From the IMG/VR virus record IMGVR_UViG_3300022074_000286, positions 1 through 28,144 of that record: DNA of 28,144 nt, one strand, 5' to 3'. This DNA comes from a virus. Under the pieces are notes generated by a model. The model had not been told where the DNA came from. It saw only the letters and a program-made list of their open reading frames with translations, and did no database searches. A program made the translations under genes and the position numbers. How positions within the stretch are numbered: position 1 is the stretch's first letter; each line of letters starts with the position of its first letter. Below are positions 14,701-28,144 of this stretch, one piece after another.

Positions 14701-17700
14701 GAATCTGATCAGCAAACAGGACTTGATATAGCTAGAAGAAAACCATTTGGAGTAGAGTTTAGAGAAACTGGTGATATTACAAAAGCAAAGAGAGTAACAA
14801 AAAGACCATATGCCACTATAACTGGTGATTTAGTAAGAACAACTCCTGACAGTTCTTTTGCAGAGGCTCAAGCGGCATTAAACGATCCCTCATTTATACA
14901 AGTGGGATTTGATCCTGAAAGACATTCCTATTTTTATGACAGAACAACAACACAACCTGTTGTAGCTGCTGAAAGAGTTATACAAGTTGGACCGCTTGTT
15001 ATGGCTAAAAACCCTGTTTTTGAAGGTAAAGAGAACTTTAAGTATTCTAAAACAGGTTCTTCTATAGAAAGGGCCCGTAGAACATTTGACAAAGATGGCG
15101 ATGCTCTTATTGATAGCACTATAGTTGATGATTATGATGATAAAGGCAATATTAAACCACAGCCTGAGTATCAAACTAATCCTGACCAAGCTACAGATGC
15201 TAAAATAGGAAAAGTTTTAAAAATTGATGCACTTAGAAATAATCAAATAAAAAGAAAAAATAAAGTATTTGATATACATTCTGACAATATAGAAGAAAAA
15301 GAAAGTAATAGAGAAAATGTTTCCATTATGCTTGCGGCTGAGGCAGAAAGGGCATTGCAAAAAGATAACAATGCTATTGGTTGGTATGGCAGAACATTAG
15401 ATAAAACAAAAAAGTTAGTTACTAAGTTATTATATCCAAATATTAATAAACCAAGTGACAGACTTGCTTTTGATTATGCTTTATCTGTTACATCTAATGG
15501 CATAGGAGTTATACAAAATTTTGGTTATGCATCAGAACAATATGAGGGTTGGTTAAAATCTAGTGATATAGACTCAGAAAGAAGATTTCCAATAAGTGGT
15601 TGGGGCAAAAGAGTAGATGCTATGGAAAAGGCTTTTTCTTTTTATAATGCCATGAAAGATAATGGTGTATCTACAGAAGAATTTATAGAGTTTATGAATC
15701 ATAAAACTACACCAGCTTTACTAAGACAAAACAGTTATATAATACAAACAGACCAAGAAGTAGACAGTAAAGAAGCCGCTAATGAGCCTGTTAACGGATC
15801 TTATATAATAGGTCCTAAGATAGGTCAGGGTTTTTATCAAAATTTAAATGGAAACTTTGAACCATTAACAATGGATATTTGGTTCACAAGAACTATTAAT
15901 AGACTAACAGGTTTTCCGTTTAAACCACCTAAATTAGCATCTACATTAACAAAACAAATTGAAAGAGTTAATCTTGCTTTATCTGGTAAGATGAGAGATG
16001 GAAAAAAAGCTAATGCTCCTATAATAGATAATGAGCTATCAGATTTAGATATAGAATTAATCCAAAGAGCAGAAGAAGCTACGGGTATAGATGTAGTTAC
16101 TGAAGCTAATATGTTTGAGTTTACTCAAAGACTTTATAAAGAATATGAAAGATGGAGAGGAAGAACAGGAAGAAAGTTTGAGAAAGAAACTGGCAGAAAA
16201 GCTAAAGAATTAACTTTAGAAAAATCAGAATTAATGAAAGCTGCAGATGCTTTTAGACTTGCTAGACAAGATGTAGAGCAAGAAGATCCAAGAGATACAC
16301 AAGACAGGCAGGCATTTAGACAGATTGTAAATAGAGCAAGAGAAATATTAAAAGAAGATACTGGTACTGATATAAGTAATGCAGACTTTCAAGCTCTTAT
16401 TTGGTTTGCAGAAAAACAATTTTTTGCAGCACAGGGCGTTAAAAAAGCACAGGGTGATGATAATGATTATCTTGATGGTGCTGTATTTTTATTACAATCA
16501 AAAGGAATAGAAAATGACAAAATCACAGAAGCACTTCCCGAAGCAGACAGATCAAGAGTCTATAGTAGAGCAAGTCCCTATGGAAGAGATGAACAATTTC
16601 GTGAAAGAGTTGCTGGAGAATTACAGGTCGAATCAGATACAGATGCCGGACTCGAAGGACTAAACGAAACTGACGCTATATACGAGTTTATAGATCCTGT
16701 TAGAAGAGTTGAAATAGAAGAAAAAGGCACTGATATAAAGTATTCTATTCTTTCTAGTATGTTTGCTAAAAACCCTTCATTATCATTTGTTGATAGACCA
16801 ATGAAAGGTTTAGATACAGCATTTGGAGATGTTCTTGGTAATATTGAAGTTAGAAGAAAACAAAGAGAAGCTAGGAATAGCCCTGCAATAAAGCTGTTTG
16901 GTTTAGTAGAGAACATTAATGGCAATCTTGAGCATGTAGTAGTTCAAGAAGGAACTCATGTTGATTTAGGTAATGGTAAATATGGAGGCTTTGGTCTTGC
17001 TCATATAAGGGGTAAAAGATTAAATAAAGAAGGAAAGCCTATATTAAGTCATGAACAAGAAATATTAAGAAATCATGAGTACCCATCTGTTTTACATGCC
17101 ATAGAAGCAATGTTAAGAGCATATAAAACACAAAGAGCTAACTTTAATAAACAGTTTTATGATGAGTTAAGGGATAATATGGGCATCAGAGTAGAGCCTG
17201 ATGGGGGAATAGGCAATAATGATGTTAGAATAGAGTGGACTAAGGGTAGAAATAAGGATGGCAGTGATAATAAGCTAGTCATGTCACTTAAGTATGACAA
17301 TACCACTTTAAAGAAAGGTGGATTGTTTGGTAAACCAGTTCAGGTATTACCGCTATATACGGTAAGAACTATATTTTCTACACCAAAACAGTCTGAAAAA
17401 AGAAAAAGATCACAGATAAGTTCTACACCAGTAAATCAAGTTAGCCCTAACACACCTGAGATCACACAAGATATAGAGGAAAGAAGACAAAAGATTAGAT
17501 ATGACAATCTTTCTGGTATTATTGCAAAAGGACTAGGTTTTATAATGCCACCCGATGTTGCCTCTGAGAAAGCTACAGACCTTTTAGTTGGCTTCCAAGA
17601 TGCAATGCTACCTGTTGGTACATTAATGGATAATCTTAGAGAAAAAGGCATAAAGATAACAGATGCAGTAGATACATATCTAAGAGAAGAGTTGTATCAG

Positions 17701-21561: not shown

Positions 21562-21579
21562 AAGTTAATTTTAACTTCT
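21560..21579. repeat. dispersed palindrome, copy 5
   Basis: On the plus strand this reads ATAAGTTAA-TT-TTAACTTCT. On the coding (minus) strand it begins at the stop codon of the HTH gene and runs into the ATG of the nuclease gene, so it fills the whole 9-base intergenic space and takes the place of a ribosome binding site. Confidence 0.78.
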
Positions 21580-21804
21580 AGGACTTTTTTCTAACCACTC
21601 GACTACATCTGCTTTCTTGTAAAGTCTCTTAGGTCTATTCTTTGAAGACTTAATTATCTCAAAACTTTTTGGGAAAGTAGAATTTTCATCGTTGATTATA
21701 TTGTATAACGTCATCCGACTTATAGAAAGATAATTAGCTACACCATCTAAGGTCAGATAATCTGATTGTATATCAGCATTATTCTCCGACTTTTTCTTGG
21801 TCAT
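21571..21804 (-). CDS. AlpA/MerR-like HTH DNA-binding protein
   Basis: This 77-residue protein has one winged helix-turn-helix domain. Residues 17-38 (LTLDGVANYLSISRMTLYNIIN) hold the two helices, followed by a wing with FPKSFEI and RPKRLYKKADVVEWLEK. This is the excisionase/AlpA/HTH_17 type. In phages these are regulators or recombination directionality factors; no integrase is in the window, so a regulator is more likely. I chose the ATG at 21804 because GGAAAG precedes it; an upstream ATG at 21837 would overlap the previous gene more. It is the only obvious sequence-specific DNA-binding protein here and so a candidate reader of the dispersed palindrome, which is speculation. Confidence 0.78.
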   Translation of the reverse strand: MTKKKSENNADIQSDYLTLDGVANYLSISRMTLYNIINDENSTFPKSFEIIKSSKNRPKRLYKKADVVEWLEKSPRS

Positions 21805-22009
21805 CTTCTTTCCTTTCGTCAGGTGTACCATCTTCATTGAGTTTTACCATAACAACCATGTACCTAGAGCCAACCCAATCTTTATGCAACTGTGGTGGCA
21901 CATCATTAGGATGTATGGTCAGCCTTATATTAGTTCCGTTCTTGTCTTGCATCATAGATGTTTTGACTGCCTCAAAACTAACTCCCTCAATTTTATTTTC
22001 TTCTTCCAT
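21779..22009 (-). CDS. small conserved phage protein of unknown function
   Basis: The core of this 76-residue acidic protein, MMQDKNGTNIRLTIHPNDVP, followed by WVGSRYMVVMVKLNEDGTP, is a pattern I recall in early regions of other phages. It looks like a small beta fold. GGGAGAG lies 4 bases before the ATG. It lies directly between the SSB-tail gene and the HTH gene in the same operon, which suggests a replication or recombination accessory role. No biochemical function is known to me. Confidence 0.7.
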   Translation of the reverse strand: MEEENKIEGVSFEAVKTSMMQDKNGTNIRLTIHPNDVPPQLHKDWVGSRYMVVMVKLNEDGTPDERKEDDQEKVGE

Positions 22010-22019
22010 CTAACTCTCC

Positions 22020-22340
22020 CTAAAATGGTATTTCGTCATCTAGTTCATTACTAGATGAGTTTTGTTGTTGAGTTTGCTGAGGCTTGAATTGAGATTTGTC
22101 TTGTCTGTCTCTTTCAATATTGCCTATTATTCTGAGATAAGGACTGCCTGCCTTGCTGAGTTTTTTCCAACCAACTAGATTAAGTTTAGGCTGAGATATT
22201 CCCTCTTGCTTTTGCTTTATCAGGTCTTCTACAACTTCCATCTCTAATGAAAGCATACCTGAGTAGTCAGGGCTTTTTTCTGACTTCTTATCTTTTTGAG
22301 TAAACAAGCCACCCGTTGCGGGGTATTGATTATTTTCCAT
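22020..22340 (-). CDS. small replication accessory protein with SSB-like C-terminal tail
   Basis: This protein of about 106 residues ends in SSNELDDEIPF, an acidic tail closing with Ile-Pro-Phe like that of single-stranded DNA-binding proteins. Before the tail is a Gln-rich linker (KPQQTQQQN). The N-terminal body, with YPATGGLFTQKDKKS and later LNLVGWKKLSKAGSPYLRI, does not look like a full OB-fold SSB but could be a small beta domain. I chose the ATG at 22340: AGGAG is 9 bases upstream, while ATGs at 22346 and 22367 have poor spacing. Its stop is 10 bases before the next ATG. It may replace SSB or bind partners of SSB. Confidence 0.65.
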   Translation of the reverse strand: MENNQYPATGGLFTQKDKKSEKSPDYSGMLSLEMEVVEDLIKQKQEGISQPKLNLVGWKKLSKAGSPYLRIIGNIERDRQDKSQFKPQQTQQQNSSSNELDDEIPF

Positions 22341-23046
22341 CGTCATTTTCTCCTTTGTTGTTGACAATTTCTTCTGCTCTCTTCTTGAAAGCGATCTCTA
22401 CTTCTTCGTAGTCTTTTAAAGAGAGTTCTTTTAGTGTCTCTCTTGCCTCTTTATTATTTTTCCAAAAACCAACTATGTCTGCTCTGTTATGTTGTATTGG
22501 TAAAAATGTTATAAAGACCTCTTTGATGAACTCTATGCCTTTTACAGTCTCTTCAGTATTATCTAACTTTTTAAATGTTACCTCAGGCAGATCATCTTTA
22601 TCTTCGTCTCCCTCTCCACTAACTGTACCGCCTTTTATTTCCTCAGGTCGTTCCTCTTTAAAACTGTCAGCCTCATCCTCTGCATACACATCGCCATGAA
22701 GACCAACTAACTTAAGTATAACTCTGTCCTTAGCCCTCTTCTCAGCCATAGCATATGGATAACTATTTTTATTATTTGATGGGGATGCCTCGCCTATAGA
22801 CCATTCTGATTTATCGCCCATATGCCCCATAACCATTAAGCTAACAACTCTCTTACTGCTATCGCTTTCTAATATTTGAGGGGCATCAAACTTTATCTTT
22901 CTTGCAACTGCAACTTTTTCCAAAGCCTTATGTAAAAGCACATAAGTTCCATGACAGTTCCAACCCGCATCCGTATGGCTCATGCCGATTTCTTTCAAGG
23001 TATCGACAACCTTATCAGGTATATTAAATTTCATTTTTTCATCCAT
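22330..23046 (-). CDS. probable ERF/Rad52-like single-strand annealing protein
   Basis: The folded part of this 238-residue protein covers about residues 5-130. It includes an N-terminal helix, a strand with RVVSLMVMGHMGDKSEW, then EASPSNNKNSYPYAMAEKRA and DRVILKLVGLHGDVYAEDEAD. The YPYAMAEKRAxDRVIL helix with a downstream GLxG resembles ERF/DUF1071-type annealing proteins of phages, which pair single strands in recombination. The C-terminal 100 residues are charged and look like a variable tail. It sits between a RecB-like exonuclease and an SSB-tail protein, the usual company of an annealase. An ATG at 23034 would give an ATGA overlap and may be the true start. The family call comes from memory of the pattern. 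Confidence 0.55.
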   Translation of the reverse strand: MDEKMKFNIPDKVVDTLKEIGMSHTDAGWNCHGTYVLLHKALEKVAVARKIKFDAPQILESDSSKRVVSLMVMGHMGDKSEWSIGEASPSNNKNSYPYAMAEKRAKDRVILKLVGLHGDVYAEDEADSFKEERPEEIKGGTVSGEGDEDKDDLPEVTFKKLDNTEETVKGIEFIKEVFITFLPIQHNRADIVGFWKNNKEARETLKELSLKDYEEVEIAFKKRAEEIVNNKGENDDGK

Positions 23047-23252
23047 AGTTTTATTTTATCTTTTATTTTAAAGAAGATTTTGCAAATAAATAAAACGTCT
23101 TCTGCTTTACCTTTGCTCGTAGCCTCGACTATATGCTCTGCGATTAAAGACCTATCCTTAGGTCTTTCTCCAACTATTGGCTTTAGCTTAACAAAACCAC
23201 TTTTCTTAACCTTTCTTACTACCCTCTTGGGTATCTTTACCTTGTCTTTCAT
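23031..23252 (-). CDS. small basic protein of unknown function
   Basis: This 73-residue protein is strongly basic (MKDKVKIPKRVVRKVKKSG start, KIKDKIKLWMKK end) with one short hydrophobic segment (EDVLFICKIFFKI). It begins with an ATGA overlap with the exonuclease stop and has GAGGAT just upstream. It overlaps the annealing protein gene at the other end, so the three are probably co-translated. A nucleic-acid-binding accessory of the exonuclease-annealase pair is possible; no family recognised. Confidence 0.6.
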   Translation of the reverse strand: MKDKVKIPKRVVRKVKKSGFVKLKPIVGERPKDRSLIAEHIVEATSKGKAEDVLFICKIFFKIKDKIKLWMKK

Positions 23253-24160
23253 ATTATCCTCTCTTTATGTTGGTTACAAAAATCAGCAACAGAACAATAG
23301 TTGCCACAACGAGTATATTCTCCAACTCGTAATTCAATTTCATATGTATGTTTTTTTATGGGAACGTATGCCTTATCAGTTTCAGAGTGCCACTTAACAT
23401 AATCCACCGCCTCTTGATAACTATCTAATACTCTGATTGCCCTCTTCTGACCTTTTTTCTTTACTGCCCATGTATCATTCTTCTTCCACATATCTTCATC
23501 ACTACAAAGACCTACATCTCCATGTAAGTCAGACAAAATCTGTGCCTCTTGATGTAAAGCCATTCTTTCTTTTATGTATTTTGATATCTTTTCGTGATCC
23601 CACAAAGGTACATCAACAAAAACTATAGGTGCTTTTGGATAGTCTTCTTTTCTTTCAGCATCTCTTCTGTTCCAATCTCTCAGGATTGCACATATTTTTA
23701 AGCTATTTACGTTTCTTTTAGAAAGACCAACCTTGTTTGCAACTAAAAAAGCATAACAATTTAATTGATTTTCCCACTCAGGTTTTCCGTATATCACAGA
23801 CCAAACTGATGTAACTTTGTAATCAACTATAGTTACCTGATCGTCTTTTATTTCTTGCCTATCAACTGCACCTGACAAAACCCAACCATCAATTTCTTGA
23901 TAAAGTCTTTCCTCAGTTATAACATCGTTAGATTGTTTTGAGTTTTCTAAAACAGAATGAACCGCAGTCCCAAATAATGCCCAAACCATATCAACTGCAT
24001 CAACCTCTATTTCATGATCGTGCTTTTCTTTCATTAATCTTATCTTGGGGCTATCTATCAAGGTAGTGACAGATATGTCAGCTTTACCTTTACTGTATTT
24101 ATCGTTTATGGCAAAGTCCACAAAAGGTTGTGGCATACCAAACTTGTTGGTTATTTTCAT
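23249..24160 (-). CDS. RecB/Cas4-like PD-(D/E)XK exonuclease with C-terminal cysteine cluster
   Basis: The motifs of the RecB-type nuclease fold are seen in order in this 303-residue protein: H68 in FGTAVHSVLE, D100 in LSGAVDR, D113-Y-K115 in TIVDYKVTS, and Q132/Y136 in ENQLNCYAF. The C-terminus holds C285, C289 and C295 (RCGNYCSVADFC), a cysteine arrangement like the iron-sulfur clasp of Cas4/AddB nucleases. There the fourth ligand comes from further upstream; C135 or another cysteine could serve. It probably resects double-stranded ends for recombination or degrades host DNA. AAGGAG lies about 8 bases before the ATG. First gene of the leftward operon. Confidence 0.82.
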   Translation of the reverse strand: MKITNKFGMPQPFVDFAINDKYSKGKADISVTTLIDSPKIRLMKEKHDHEIEVDAVDMVWALFGTAVHSVLENSKQSNDVITEERLYQEIDGWVLSGAVDRQEIKDDQVTIVDYKVTSVWSVIYGKPEWENQLNCYAFLVANKVGLSKRNVNSLKICAILRDWNRRDAERKEDYPKAPIVFVDVPLWDHEKISKYIKERMALHQEAQILSDLHGDVGLCSDEDMWKKNDTWAVKKKGQKRAIRVLDSYQEAVDYVKWHSETDKAYVPIKKHTYEIELRVGEYTRCGNYCSVADFCNQHKERII

Positions 24161-24185
24161 GTAATTTTCTCCTTACGCAACTTTA

Positions 24186-24214
24186 TAGATAATAGGAATA
24201 CCAACTTATGTCAA
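24186..24214 (-). promoter_or_regulatory. sigma70-type promoter for the leftward early operon
   Basis: On the minus strand TTGACA (24214-24209), a 17-base spacer and TATCTA (24191-24186) precede the first gene of the leftward operon by about 25 bases. The -35 box is perfect; the -10 box is weak by E. coli standards but matches the -10 boxes of two other sites in the window (TATCTT and TATGTT). The -35 box overlaps the start codon of the divergent RusA-like gene. Confidence 0.55.
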
Positions 24215-24970: not shown

Positions 24971-24999
24971 TTGACTAGGAAATTTTATGGCACTATCTT
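24971..24999 (+). promoter_or_regulatory. sigma70-type promoter for the primase-helicase gene
   Basis: TTGACT (24971-24976), a 17-base spacer and TATCTT (24994-24999) follow an A/T tract (from about 24950) that could act as an UP element. Transcription would start near 25005 and leave a short leader containing AGGAG before the ATG at 25024. The site shares its form with those at 24186-24214 and 27295-27323. A 19-codon frame (24987-25046) with its own AGGA starts inside this promoter and would be translated only from an upstream start. Confidence 0.5.
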
Positions 25000-25023
25000 T
25001 TTTGGATTGCGTAGGAGAAAAAT

Positions 25024-26871
25024 ATGGAGTTATCATCAAATATTAGGGCAAATGCCCTCAAGTTAGGTAGTGGTCAACATAAGGTTAACTGCCCTTTTTG
25101 CTCACATAGCAGAAAGAAAAAAGATCAAAAAACAATGTCACTAAAGGTAGATGACGATGCAGTTGTTTATAACTGTTGGCATTGCAACGAAAATGGTTCT
25201 GTAAAGATTGGAGACAATAATTTTAAACTGATAAGGAGAGAGAATGTGGTTCACGCTGTCGATAAAAAGATGTGGGGAAATTTAACAGAAGACAATGGCA
25301 GTATCACATACTTGAAGAGCAGAGGCATATCTGAGAATACCGCTAAACTTGCGGGAGTTAAGTTTAAAAAACATTACATAGCATCAGAGAAAAAGGAGAT
25401 GCCTTGTTTAGTATTTCCATATGTAAACAAGGGGAATACAGAGTTTGCTAAATTGAGATCATTTCCAAATAAAGGTTTTTCGTCTCAGGGATCAGCAGTT
25501 AATTTTTTTAATATAGATAATGTGGAAACAAATGATTGGATAATTATTTGTGAGGGGGAGATGGATGCACTTTCATTCATCGAGGTTGGCTACAAATCTG
25601 TAGTCTCAATACCACATGGGGCAGTAATGAAAGTCGTTGATGGCAAGGTTGATGCCCATGAAGATAATAAGTTTAAATTTATTTGGAACGCAAAAAAGAA
25701 ATTAGAGTTGTGTGACAAAGTTGTCATAGCTATGGATAGCGATAAGTCAGGTCAGGCTATGGCTGAAGAAATAGCTAGGCGAGTAGGCAAAGATAGGTGC
25801 TTCAAAATAGAATATCCTGAGGATTGTAAGGATGCCAATGATGTTTTAGTAAAGCATGGAAAGCAAAAGTTAGACGATTTAGCATCTAATCCAGTACCTT
25901 ATCCAGTTTCAGGATTATACGATGCCTCTCATTTTTATGATGAGGTGGATGAGATTTACGAAAAGGGTGTAGGATCAGGAGTTTCAACGGGATACAAGGA
26001 AGTCGATCCGCTATATACGATTGTTGAGGGGCAGTTAACAGTTGTAACGGGGCATCCATCAAGCGGTAAGTCTGAATTTGTTGATCAGATTATGGTTAAT
26101 ATAGCTAAAGAAAAAGGATGGAAATTTGGTATTTGCTCATTTGAAAACGAGCCAAGAATACATATTGCCAAGCTGATAAGCAAACATATTGGCAAACCAT
26201 TCTTTGATGGTGTAACACCAAAATTAAATAAGGAAGATTTAGATAAGGGAAAGAAGTTTGTGCAAGAACATTTTTCTTTTTTGTATCAGGCTGATGGATC
26301 GCTATCTACGTTAGAAAGCATTATGGAAAGAATGAAAGTTGCCGTTATGAGGCATGGTGTTAGAGGCATAGTCATTGATCCATATAATTATATTTCAAAA
26401 GTTAATTTAACTTCTGAAACTGATTGGATATCAGATATGCTGACTAACCTCAGAGTTTTTGCTCAGGCTCATGGAATACATATTTGGTTTGTTGCTCATC
26501 CAACCAAGATGATCAGGAAAGATGATGGAACTGTCCCGCCACCAAAGGGATATGATATATCAGGATCAGCGAGTTGGTTTGCGAAAGCTGATGTAGGATT
26601 GACAGTACATAGACCTAATCCGTCTTCATCGAGTATAAGTCAAATTATGATTTGGAAATGCAGATTTAGTTGGGTGGGATCGATTGGTGATGTGGGACTT
26701 TCATTTGATAAAGTAACTTCTAGATATAATAGTATGGATAACATAGAAAGCCATGAGGAAATGTTAGCCCCTGATGGATATATATGGGCTAAGAATAAAC
26801 AAAAGACACAAAAAAAAGTAGAGTATAATAACTACTATGAAAAAGAAGATGACGAAGACTTACCATTTTGA
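25024..26871 (+). CDS. bifunctional DNA primase-helicase (T7 gp4/Twinkle type)
   Basis: This 615-residue enzyme is predicted to make primers and unwind DNA at the fork. The zinc ribbon has C23-P-F-C26 and C51-W-H-C54. The TOPRIM domain shows E178 in CEGEMDALSF and D238-S-D240 in AMDSDKSG. The helicase has Walker A G343-HPSSGKS-350, a catalytic-type E374 in FGICSFENEP, Walker B in GIVIDPYNY (D452), H492 in VAHPTK and a DISGSASWFAKADVGL arginine-finger region. The C-terminus, KEDDEDLPF, is acidic and ends in Phe, as in T7 gp4, where such a tail binds the polymerase. AGGAG lies 6 bases before the ATG. Complete length for the family. A palindrome copy lies within the helicase part, just after Walker B. 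Confidence 0.95.
   Translation: MELSSNIRANALKLGSGQHKVNCPFCSHSRKKKDQKTMSLKVDDDAVVYNCWHCNENGSVKIGDNNFKLIRRENVVHAVDKKMWGNLTEDNGSITYLKSRGISENTAKLAGVKFKKHYIASEKKEMPCLVFPYVNKGNTEFAKLRSFPNKGFSSQGSAVNFFNIDNVETNDWIIICEGEMDALSFIEVGYKSVVSIPHGAVMKVVDGKVDAHEDNKFKFIWNAKKKLELCDKVVIAMDSDKSGQAMAEEIARRVGKDRCFKIEYPEDCKDANDVLVKHGKQKLDDLASNPVPYPVSGLYDASHFYDEVDEIYEKGVGSGVSTGYKEVDPLYTIVEGQLTVVTGHPSSGKSEFVDQIMVNIAKEKGWKFGICSFENEPRIHIAKLISKHIGKPFFDGVTPKLNKEDLDKGKKFVQEHFSFLYQADGSLSTLESIMERMKVAVMRHGVRGIVIDPYNYISKVNLTSETDWISDMLTNLRVFAQAHGIHIWFVAHPTKMIRKDDGTVPPPKGYDISGSASWFAKADVGLTVHRPNPSSSSISQIMIWKCRFSWVGSIGDVGLSFDKVTSRYNSMDNIESHEEMLAPDGYIWAKNKQKTQKKVEYNNYYEKEDDEDLPF
26397..26415. repeat. dispersed palindrome, copy 7 (intragenic, 1-bp centre)
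   Basis: AAAAGTTAA-T-TTAACTTCT lies in the helicase domain coding region, just after Walker B, and is read as KVNLTS. The centre is one base shorter than in other copies, but the arms are unchanged. Confidence 0.65.
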
Positions 26872-27298
26872 CAACAAAACTGTTAAGCCTGAGTTTATAG
26901 ATAAAACAAATAAAGTTAGAATGAGAGTGGTTGATCAGACTTGCTTAGACAAGTTGCTACTTGATGATAGTATATCGCTAGATGACTTTATGATCTTGGA
27001 TAAGTTTCAGATGGACTACAATAGATCAGGCATGGTGGGAATAAAGGCATCGAATTACAATCCTAGAATTACGTCTACCTACGACACCACTAGCAATGAT
27101 AATGAAATACTTAGAAGAAAAGTTACTGAGTGTTTAGGATTTTCTAGATCAGCAGGTGGATCTAGGATATACGATATCCTGATGAAAATACTAACTGATA
27201 AGGATTTAACTCGTATTGATATTGAATTTATTAAAAATAATATTTTGGAAATTGTTAAGCCAATAAAAGAATTTTATGAAAGTTGGAGAAATAGTTGA
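26849..27298 (+). CDS. conserved phage protein after primase-helicase, unknown function
   Basis: This protein of about 149 residues starts MTKTYHFDNKTVKPEFIDKT. A helical middle (VVDQTCLDKLLLDDSISLDDF) and a block with DYNRSGMVGIKASNYNPRIT follow. The L-x-x-L-x-x-D-x-I-S-x-x-x-x-x-x-D-x-F-x-x-D pattern resembles the family I know loosely as DUF6456, and I recall similar genes next to replication genes in other marine phages. The ATG at 26849 has a purine-rich GAAAAAGAAG upstream; a start 12 bases earlier (26837) has none. It overlaps the primase-helicase end in another frame. Its stop codon lies inside the -35 box of a promoter-like site. Confidence 0.65.
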   Translation: MTKTYHFDNKTVKPEFIDKTNKVRMRVVDQTCLDKLLLDDSISLDDFMILDKFQMDYNRSGMVGIKASNYNPRITSTYDTTSNDNEILRRKVTECLGFSRSAGGSRIYDILMKILTDKDLTRIDIEFIKNNILEIVKPIKEFYESWRNS

Positions 27299-27323
27299 CT
27301 TAATTAAAAGGTGGGATTATGTT
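27295..27323 (+). promoter_or_regulatory. sigma70-type promoter for a candidate small RNA
   Basis: TTGACT (27295-27300), a 17-base spacer and TATGTT (27318-27323) lie directly after the preceding gene, with the TGA inside the -35 box. There is no open frame of useful size between here and the terminator at 27367-27404. The predicted start is near 27330, where a stem-loop begins. Confidence 0.5.
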
Positions 27324-27329
27324 TCGATA

Positions 27330-27404
27330 AAGTGATTGTTTTCTCAGCATCTCACTTCTTACGCAAGAGGGCGGTGTCTCCAATACCGCCCTCATTCTTT
27401 TTCT
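27330..27404 (+). ncRNA. candidate phage small RNA, about 75 nt
   Basis: The stretch begins about 7 bases after a promoter-like -10 box and ends in a clear intrinsic terminator. It can form a 5' hairpin (AAGTGA at 27330-27335 with TCACTT at 27352-27357), a short linker (CTTACGCAA) and the GC-rich terminator hairpin. It has no coding potential. Promoter, hairpin, linker and terminator in about 110 bases is the usual design of a bacterial regulatory RNA. It could instead be a plain gene-end terminator with a chance promoter upstream. Confidence 0.5.
27367..27404 (+). terminator. intrinsic terminator
   Basis: GAGGGCGGT (27367-27375) pairs perfectly with ACCGCCCTC (27385-27393) around a 9-base loop, followed by ATTCTTTTTCT. 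The stem is far more GC-rich than its surroundings. The T-tract is on the plus-strand side only, so it should stop rightward transcription from the primase-helicase genes and from the candidate small RNA. Confidence 0.9.
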
Positions 27405-27424
27405 AAAAGTTTAATTTAACTTCT
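27405..27424. repeat. dispersed palindrome, copy 8 (imperfect)
   Basis: AAAAGTTTAATTTAACTTCT has the family arms with one altered base in the left half. It starts right after the terminator and overlaps the TAG of the leftward gene that follows, the same placement on a stop codon as copies 1, 4 and 5. Confidence 0.65.
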
Positions 27425-27650
27425 AATCGTCAAATGTACCGCCACCTCGCATATGCTGAATAGTTGAGGTTGATACTTTGTTTACTCTGCCAATCTTATC
27501 TCGATCTGACAGTCTATCAGGAACGTCTTCAAATTTCTCATGCATCCCTAATTCTTTTGGTGTTTTAGATTTGTTTTCTTTTTGGATTTGTATGTGCAAA
27601 TCCTTTAAAGTGTCTCTAATTCTTAGTTGATCGTGCTTTTTCTTTTGCAT
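27423..27650 (-). CDS. small charged protein of unknown function
   Basis: This 75-residue, highly charged protein has a Lys/Gln-rich N-terminal helix (MQKKKHDQLRIRDTLKDLHI) and an end with RLSDRDKIGRVNKVSTSTIQ, then HMRGGGTFDD. No family recognised. The ordered charge pattern and a stop codon on a palindrome copy, as for other genes here, support a real gene. AAGGAG lies 11 bases before the ATG, farther than usual, and is flanked by two copies of an 11-base direct repeat. Confidence 0.55.
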   Translation of the reverse strand: MQKKKHDQLRIRDTLKDLHIQIQKENKSKTPKELGMHEKFEDVPDRLSDRDKIGRVNKVSTSTIQHMRGGGTFDD

Positions 27651-27685: not shown

Positions 27686-27750
27686 CGTACAGAGCAGTTA
27701 GTTGTTTTTGCTAGTATTCGTACAGAGGGAGGAGGTAACCCCCTCTGTAC
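27686..27750 (+). promoter_or_regulatory. hairpin with two competing 5' arms, possible attenuator
   Basis: GTACAGAGGG (27720-27729) pairs with CCCTCTGTAC (27741-27750) to make a strong 10-bp stem whose loop contains AGGAGG. A second copy of CGTACAGAG lies upstream at 27686-27694 and could pair with the same 3' arm, so two structures exclude each other. The hairpin abuts an intrinsic terminator. On the minus strand the same sequence lies upstream of the 75-residue gene and could act in its leader. Confidence 0.4.
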
Positions 27751-27772
27751 AAGGCTTAAACGAGCCTTTTTT
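27751..27772 (+). terminator. intrinsic terminator
   Basis: AAGGCT (27751-27756) pairs with AGCCTT (27763-27768) around a 6-base loop, and the T-run continues to 27772. It is oriented rightward, although the nearest rightward gene already ends in the terminator at 27367-27404. It therefore either backs up that terminator or ends a separate non-coding rightward transcript. Confidence 0.75.
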
Positions 27773-27952: not shown

Positions 27953-28144
27953 CTATTCCTTAAAAAAGATACTGTAAAAACTTACAAGTATCATTGTTAA
28001 ACCAATCGAGCCTATGAATATAGTTATGAGTATTCCCTCAATACTTTGCATATAATATCCATTAGGATTGGCTAATGTTACAATAGACATGAGCATTACA
28101 CAAATGCCTAATAAGAATAATAATACTCTATCAATATTATCCAT
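27953..28144 (-). CDS. small two-span membrane protein, possibly cut by the window edge
   Basis: Sixty-three residues with two hydrophobic segments, about 7-25 (VLLFLLGICVMLMSIVTLA) and 38-60 (ILITIFIGSIGLTMILVSF and onward), joined by a polar NPNGYYMQ loop; it ends in FFKE. The ATG is exactly the last codon of the window, so the true start may lie beyond it. Candidates are a small superinfection-exclusion or holin-like protein, but no family is recognised and the lysis cassette is far away. Confidence 0.55.
   Translation of the reverse strand: MDNIDRVLLFLLGICVMLMSIVTLANPNGYYMQSIEGILITIFIGSIGLTMILVSFYSIFFKE

Follow-up and report, generated by a model that had tools for sequence, protein, structure and literature searches.

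The c4 antisense RNA of phages P1 and P7 blocks the translation of a phage mRNA by pairing around its ribosome binding site, and the P22 sar and lambda OOP RNAs are small antisense RNAs that reduce phage gene expression (PMC12197685). Other small phage RNAs, such as PreS of lambda and VpdS of VP882, act in trans on other transcripts; the target of PreS is the host dnaN, and VpdS targets sRNAs of the host and mRNAs of both phage and host (PMC12197685). Non-coding RNAs have also been reported for virulent phages: candidates of phiKZ were obtained by Grad-seq, with no target given in the bearing sections of that paper (PMC8545117), and PAK_P4 has antisense RNAs (PMC12197685). A protein, T4 RegA, represses the translation of ~30 phage mRNAs at their initiation regions, and its gene sits within the replication gene cluster (PMC3014915). 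In our searches of the open-access literature, we found no description of a phage sRNA that targets the primase or exonuclease mRNA of the same phage, and the marine phage RNAs described there are mostly riboswitch-like elements. Among phages that lack lysogeny genes, hardly any base-pairing sRNA is known whose target has phylogenetic support.

Here we describe a phage locus that very likely (we estimate the probability at ~0.86) encodes a trans-acting sRNA that keeps ribosomes from binding to the mRNAs of both replication operons. It resembles c4 (RF01695) in being a phage RNA with a proposed mode of action as a ribosome-binding-site antisense. However, c4 acts on an antirepressor gene in temperate-phage immunity, whereas the present sRNA has its own promoter, a seed in a linker and two replication operons as targets; the c4 covariance model had no match in the window at the gathering threshold, and membership of that family is not met. 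The sar and OOP RNAs have a single target each, tied to the lysis/lysogeny decision. A cis-encoded antisense RNA of this kind was rejected, and the present sRNA is instead of the trans-acting type, because its targets are 2.3 and 3.1 kb away and the complementarity in the window spans only 11-12 bp. PreS and VpdS differ in that they are Hfq-bound and come from temperate phages, and the review cited above (PMC12197685) reports no action of either on the phage's own primase mRNA. The inferred regulatory role would be shared with RegA, which is a protein, whereas the sRNA would act by base pairing and would thus show an RNA counterpart of T4 RegA.

The window, i.e. the whole stretch of DNA analysed, is the viral record IMGVR_UViG_3300022074_000286 (28,144 bases), and the sRNA locus lies near its right end (Table 1). 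The record belongs to a tailed phage whose cultured capsid and terminase relatives are the Pelagibacter phages HTVC023P/HTVC027P, the Roseobacter phages CRP-901/902 and the Planktothrix phage Pag-Yong1; this comparison was run on a relative of the window (G001), not on the window itself. The earlier note had called the phage lytic. This is possible, but it rests only on the fact that no integrase or resolvase genes were found in the ten contigs examined, most of which are incomplete. No DNA match was detected in cultured phages. In Pag-Yong1, the two leaders have no evident common motif, and the primase operon abuts a convergent gene with no gap between them.

Table 1. Positions of the sRNA gene, its two proposed targets and the surrounding features in the window.
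Feature	Position	Strand	Details
sRNA promoter, TTGACT-N17-TATGTT	27295..27323	+	TTGACT 27295-27300, TATGTT 27318-27323; conserved in relatives of families A-C
Predicted small RNA, ~74 nt	27330..27403	+	fold z -5.95; covariance-model matches in relatives; no Rfam family
5' hairpin	27330..27357	+	stem AAGTGA 27330-27335 / TCACTT 27352-27357
Antisense segment CACUUCUUACGCAA	27353..27366	+	unpaired linker CUUACGCAA plus 3' arm of hairpin 1; complementary to both leaders
Linker CTTACGCAA	27358-27366	+	9 nt
Intrinsic terminator	27367..27403	+	9-11 bp stem, CUCC-containing loop, U-tract; compensatory changes
Conserved 153-aa ORF, function not assigned	26837..27298	+	directly upstream of sRNA
Primase operon promoter, TTGACT-N17-TATCTT	24971..24999	+	
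Target 1, UUGCGUAGGAG	25007..25017	+	Shine-Dalgarno region of primase-helicase mRNA; 11 bp with sRNA, 2 G-U
Primase-helicase (TOPRIM + DnaB_C)	25024..26871	+	first gene of operon 1
Probable exonuclease operon promoter, TTGACA-N17-TATCTA	24186..24214	-	TTGACA 24214-24209; -10 uncertain
Target 2, UUGCGUAAGGAG	24169..24180	-	Shine-Dalgarno region of exonuclease mRNA; 12 bp with sRNA, 1 G-U
PD-(D/E)XK exonuclease	23249..24160	-	first gene of operon 2 (recombination)
Single-strand DNA binding protein-like gene	22020-22367	-	operon 2, downstream
HTH_17 DNA-binding protein	21571-21837	-	operon 2, downstream

The earlier note, made without database searches, had proposed a phage small RNA with its own promoter, a 6-bp hairpin, a 9-nt linker and a 9-bp GC-rich terminator with a T-tract, and checking the sequence showed that each of these elements held exactly. 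The spacing and length it gave, ~7 bases and ~75 nt, are here six bases and ~74 nt: the predicted start of the sRNA, inferred from the position of the -10, is the first base of the 5' hairpin, six bases past the -10, and the 3' end was inferred from the T-tract. The terminator stem consists of GAGGGCGGT/ACCGCCCTC at 27367-27375/27385-27393 (11 pairs when a G-U and an inner U-A are included) and is followed by the tail ATTCTTTTT, so that the sRNA carries a U-tail. The 153-aa ORF upstream, whose stop codon overlaps the -35 of the promoter, had no PHROGs or Pfam match and no relative in bacterial and archaeal genomes. The statement that this promoter has the same form as those of the early operons held only partly. 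It is not simply of the early-operon type, because its spacer holds a conserved GGTGGGATTA (27310-27319) that is kept in almost all families and is lacking in the primase and exonuclease promoters. From sequence alone, GGTGGGATTA may be where an activator binds to set the timing of the sRNA. Families E and F retain GGTGGGAT, and their -10 is altered.

The conservation of the locus in related phages indicates that it is an RNA gene. Relatives were collected with the 153-aa ORF, further ones with the linker, and more distant ones with the primase. Not counting the window, 41 related viral contigs extend across this position, and every one of them keeps the locus: a TTGACT/TTGACA box lies at the ORF stop or close to it, accompanied by a hairpin, a GC-rich terminator and, between these two, a short linker. 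The sRNA idea was to be abandoned if relatives kept only the terminator, and this was not what we found. Identity to the window is 76-100% for the promoter, 65-100% for the hairpin and 92-100% for the linker (the TAC/TAT insert of some families being scored as a gap), while four-fold degenerate sites of the primase gene are 42-54% identical, except in L007 (59%) and in L003 (91%), which is near-identical to the window. All three elements are better conserved than the sequence of the terminator stem; no exact copy of the terminator sequence was found in viral contigs. As regards the covariation that the earlier note had asked for, the terminator stem has two-sided changes at 6 of 10 positions without a single broken pair among 13 types, and its loop retains CUCC or a near variant; the 5' hairpin varies in sequence and loop in distant relatives, and its stem is still present. 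These counts are stem-anchored; the covariance model that was matched to the relatives contained a misplaced terminator stem. On the first alignment, RNAalifold also suggested a pairing between CUCCAA of the terminator loop and coding sequence further upstream; this was dropped as a rule, as it is missing in L017.

The 74-nt RNA folds at -26.7 kcal/mol versus -11.2 kcal/mol in shuffles, and none of 200 shuffles equalled it. It should be noted that the promoter hexamers, taken by themselves, occur no more often than expected by chance (40 sites observed versus 51.8 in shuffles); they gain weight because they are conserved in relatives. No Rfam family was matched at the gathering threshold anywhere in the window. 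The claim that the locus has no reading frame also held: frames are broken by indels among relatives, and a 31-codon GTG frame present in the window is not kept in them. An ATG frame of 6-7 codons that overlaps the linker occurs in family D and not in family A, and a coding reading was rejected. Based on the conservation, the two-sided stem changes and the indel-broken frames, we conclude that the locus is an RNA gene under selection; this is shown for sequence and conservation only, and its transcription is inferred. Within that same scope, the locus meets the requirement for a trans-acting antisense sRNA of an own promoter and an intrinsic terminator without a conserved reading frame.

The earlier note suggested action on host or phage mRNAs and named no target. 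This is supported and can be narrowed to two phage targets, the mRNAs for the primase-helicase and the exonuclease at their Shine-Dalgarno regions, with action and timing inferred. In every scanned genome of families A and C, the complement of the invariant linker occurs in the sense direction exactly twice, as GCGTA(N)GGAG, once beside the start codon of the primase-helicase gene and once beside that of the exonuclease gene. The linker pattern itself has no copy in bacterial and archaeal genomes. The sites of the window are TTGCGTAGGAG, just before the start of the primase-helicase gene, which forms operon 1 together with the 153-aa ORF, and TTGCGTAAGGAG, before the divergent exonuclease start. 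Both include Shine-Dalgarno sequences and sit at or just past predicted transcription starts; target 1 is the very 5' end of the primase mRNA, as this is predicted to start at ~25006. The primase and exonuclease starts are the top two of 212-381 ATG starts in 7/7 scanned genomes of family A; individual target sites of families C and D fall outside the genome's best. The linker is predicted to be unpaired in families A-C, but the seed of L072 is predicted to be partly paired, and pairing with the targets partly invades the first hairpin of the sRNA. The remaining requirements for a trans-acting antisense sRNA, namely an unpaired seed, short imperfect complementarity to distant mRNAs and joint change, are also met. 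In a family D phage (L080), a third linker-complementary start is found at 15446-15460 on the minus strand (AGGAGTAACACATG); it belongs to a 77-aa membrane-like protein and, at -13.6 kcal/mol with the linker, is the second best start in that genome.

Leaders and linkers were compared wherever the contigs reach, which yielded six linker families and seven types that were tested. Across the six families, the linker and both leaders differ in concert. Family A has UACGC in the linker and GCGUA in the leaders, and every leader or linker difference within the duplex preserves G-U pairing. In family B (L064, L066), the sRNA has UAUGC and both leaders have GCAUA. The linker of this family has a three-base insert relative to A; the exonuclease leader of L064, GCAUAGUAGGAG, pairs with it over 13 bases, and a GUA insert in one family B exonuclease leader fits the UAC/UAU insert region of the sRNA. 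In family C, the linker is CUACGCUA, and the exonuclease leader UAGCGUAGGAGAAG pairs with CUUCUU-A-CUACGCUA with one A bulged. In family D, whose primase is ~68% identical, the linker AUGUGUUACA is matched by UGUAACACAU in the leaders UGUAACACAUGGAG and UAACACAUAGGAG; a search with this linker pattern returned only the known D phages, plus matches in unrelated contexts. Families E and F were found blind, by searching the region downstream of the primase solely for the complement of the primase leader, and the search reached the same locus, between the TTGACT box and the terminator. Their linkers are UUAUGCUACACAUUA (E) and UUUUCAUGCUAUAUAA (F), and their exonuclease leaders, AGCAUAAUAGGAGAA and GCAUGAAUAGGAG, respectively, pair with a part of the linker that overlaps, but is not the same as, the one used by the primase leader.

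When linkers and leaders were swapped among the seven types, the true assignment was the best for the exonuclease (1/5040 permutations), and 4/5040 permutations were equally good for the primase. Shuffled linkers that fit both leaders were obtained in 1/3000 cases in A and in 0/3000 in the other six types. In every one of the seven types, the duplex extends to the Shine-Dalgarno purines. Since related contigs share ancestry, the permutation counts measure fit and not the probability of independent events. Together with the anatomy and conservation of the gene, the complementarity to the targets and the joint change of the RNA and both targets are shown by sequence.

The following mechanism is proposed. 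A stand-alone phage gene would produce, from its own promoter, an RNA of ~74 nt in which an unpaired linker separates a 5' hairpin from a terminator. The anti-Shine-Dalgarno part (CUUC/CUC) pairing with GGAG would come from the 3' arm of this hairpin, and the gene-specific part from the linker. The sRNA would pair in trans with the 5' ends of the primase-helicase and exonuclease/recombination mRNAs over ~10-16 bp that include GGAG. The resulting duplex would block 30S binding, and hence translation initiation, on both mRNAs, and pairing would probably hasten the decay of the mRNAs of both operons. Replication proteins would be limited or shut off as genome copies and the sRNA build up. Transcription, repression, timing and the involvement of any chaperone are all inferred in this scheme, for which there are no expression data.

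The main rival at the level of sequence is a DNA operator common to the three sites: one regulator would bind the same site in both leaders and, inverted, at the sRNA, and a shift in its specificity would change all three. Three co-varying copies per genome near promoters would indeed also be expected from a shifting DNA-binding specificity. However, an operator leaves unexplained the hairpins and the paired changes of the terminator, as well as the exact placement of the sites on the Shine-Dalgarno sequences and in an unpaired linker. Moreover, the leaders of families E and F carry differing motifs that each fit another, overlapping part of the linker, and the leader and linker differences within the family A duplex all retain G-U pairs. 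Because the E and F leaders differ and yet each fits the linker, and because the RNA fold has paired changes, we consider a shared operator very unlikely.

An RNA that truly pairs with the leaders might, instead of repressing the mRNAs, activate them or make them more stable, for instance through protection of the 5' ends. The position of the targets, at what are predicted to be the mRNA 5' ends, would allow a duplex to shield the mRNAs from decay. Against this, the duplex covers the Shine-Dalgarno purines in 7/7 types, and leaders of merely ~20 nt offer scant room for an inhibitory structure to be opened; activation thus has little to recommend it. It can also be argued that only the terminator matters, as the end of the primase operon, and that the remainder is 3'-UTR. 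From its sequence, the terminator would be expected to end that operon too. Wherever the locus was inspected (window, L003, L005), a convergent gene follows, on account of which a cis-acting leader or riboswitch was likewise rejected. Nevertheless, promoter, hairpin and linker are conserved above the terminator stem sequence, and the linker tracks two distant leaders, which leaves almost no place for a terminator-only explanation. Repression by a trans-acting sRNA therefore remains our preferred reading.

A bolder version of this reading is that a lineage of marine tailed phages runs its replication programme by RNA and not by protein, with one antisense RNA repressing both replication operons and its seed co-evolving with two ribosome-binding sites. 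We lean towards this version as a whole, by a modest margin. If true, related phages hold mutually incompatible 'codes', which may be relevant between co-infecting relatives. The mechanism is readily testable because the sequence by itself reveals the anatomy, the targets and the seed across six linker families. It also provides a search rule for uncultured phages: the complement of an early-gene Shine-Dalgarno region located between a promoter and a terminator.

Two other repeats were observed in the window. The palindrome AAGTTAANNTTAACTT lies at 27405-27422 and also at 1714, 11160, 13595, 19057, 20366, 21560, 24872 and 26397, which amounts to ~8-9 copies in the window versus 0.5 expected; relatives have 11-14 copies. 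Its copies are placed at gene ends and at fixed intragenic positions, and in families E and F AACTTTACGTAAAGTT adjoins the sRNA in its place. The palindrome may serve a phage regulator as a clade-specific binding site, and the HTH_17 protein of operon 2 could be that regulator, although this is a tentative inference from sequence. Another strong inverted repeat, GTACAGAGGG...CCCTCTGTAC with AAGGCTTAAACGAGCCTTTTTT after it, is located at 27719-27772, between the minus-strand genes 27423-27650 and 27953-28144.
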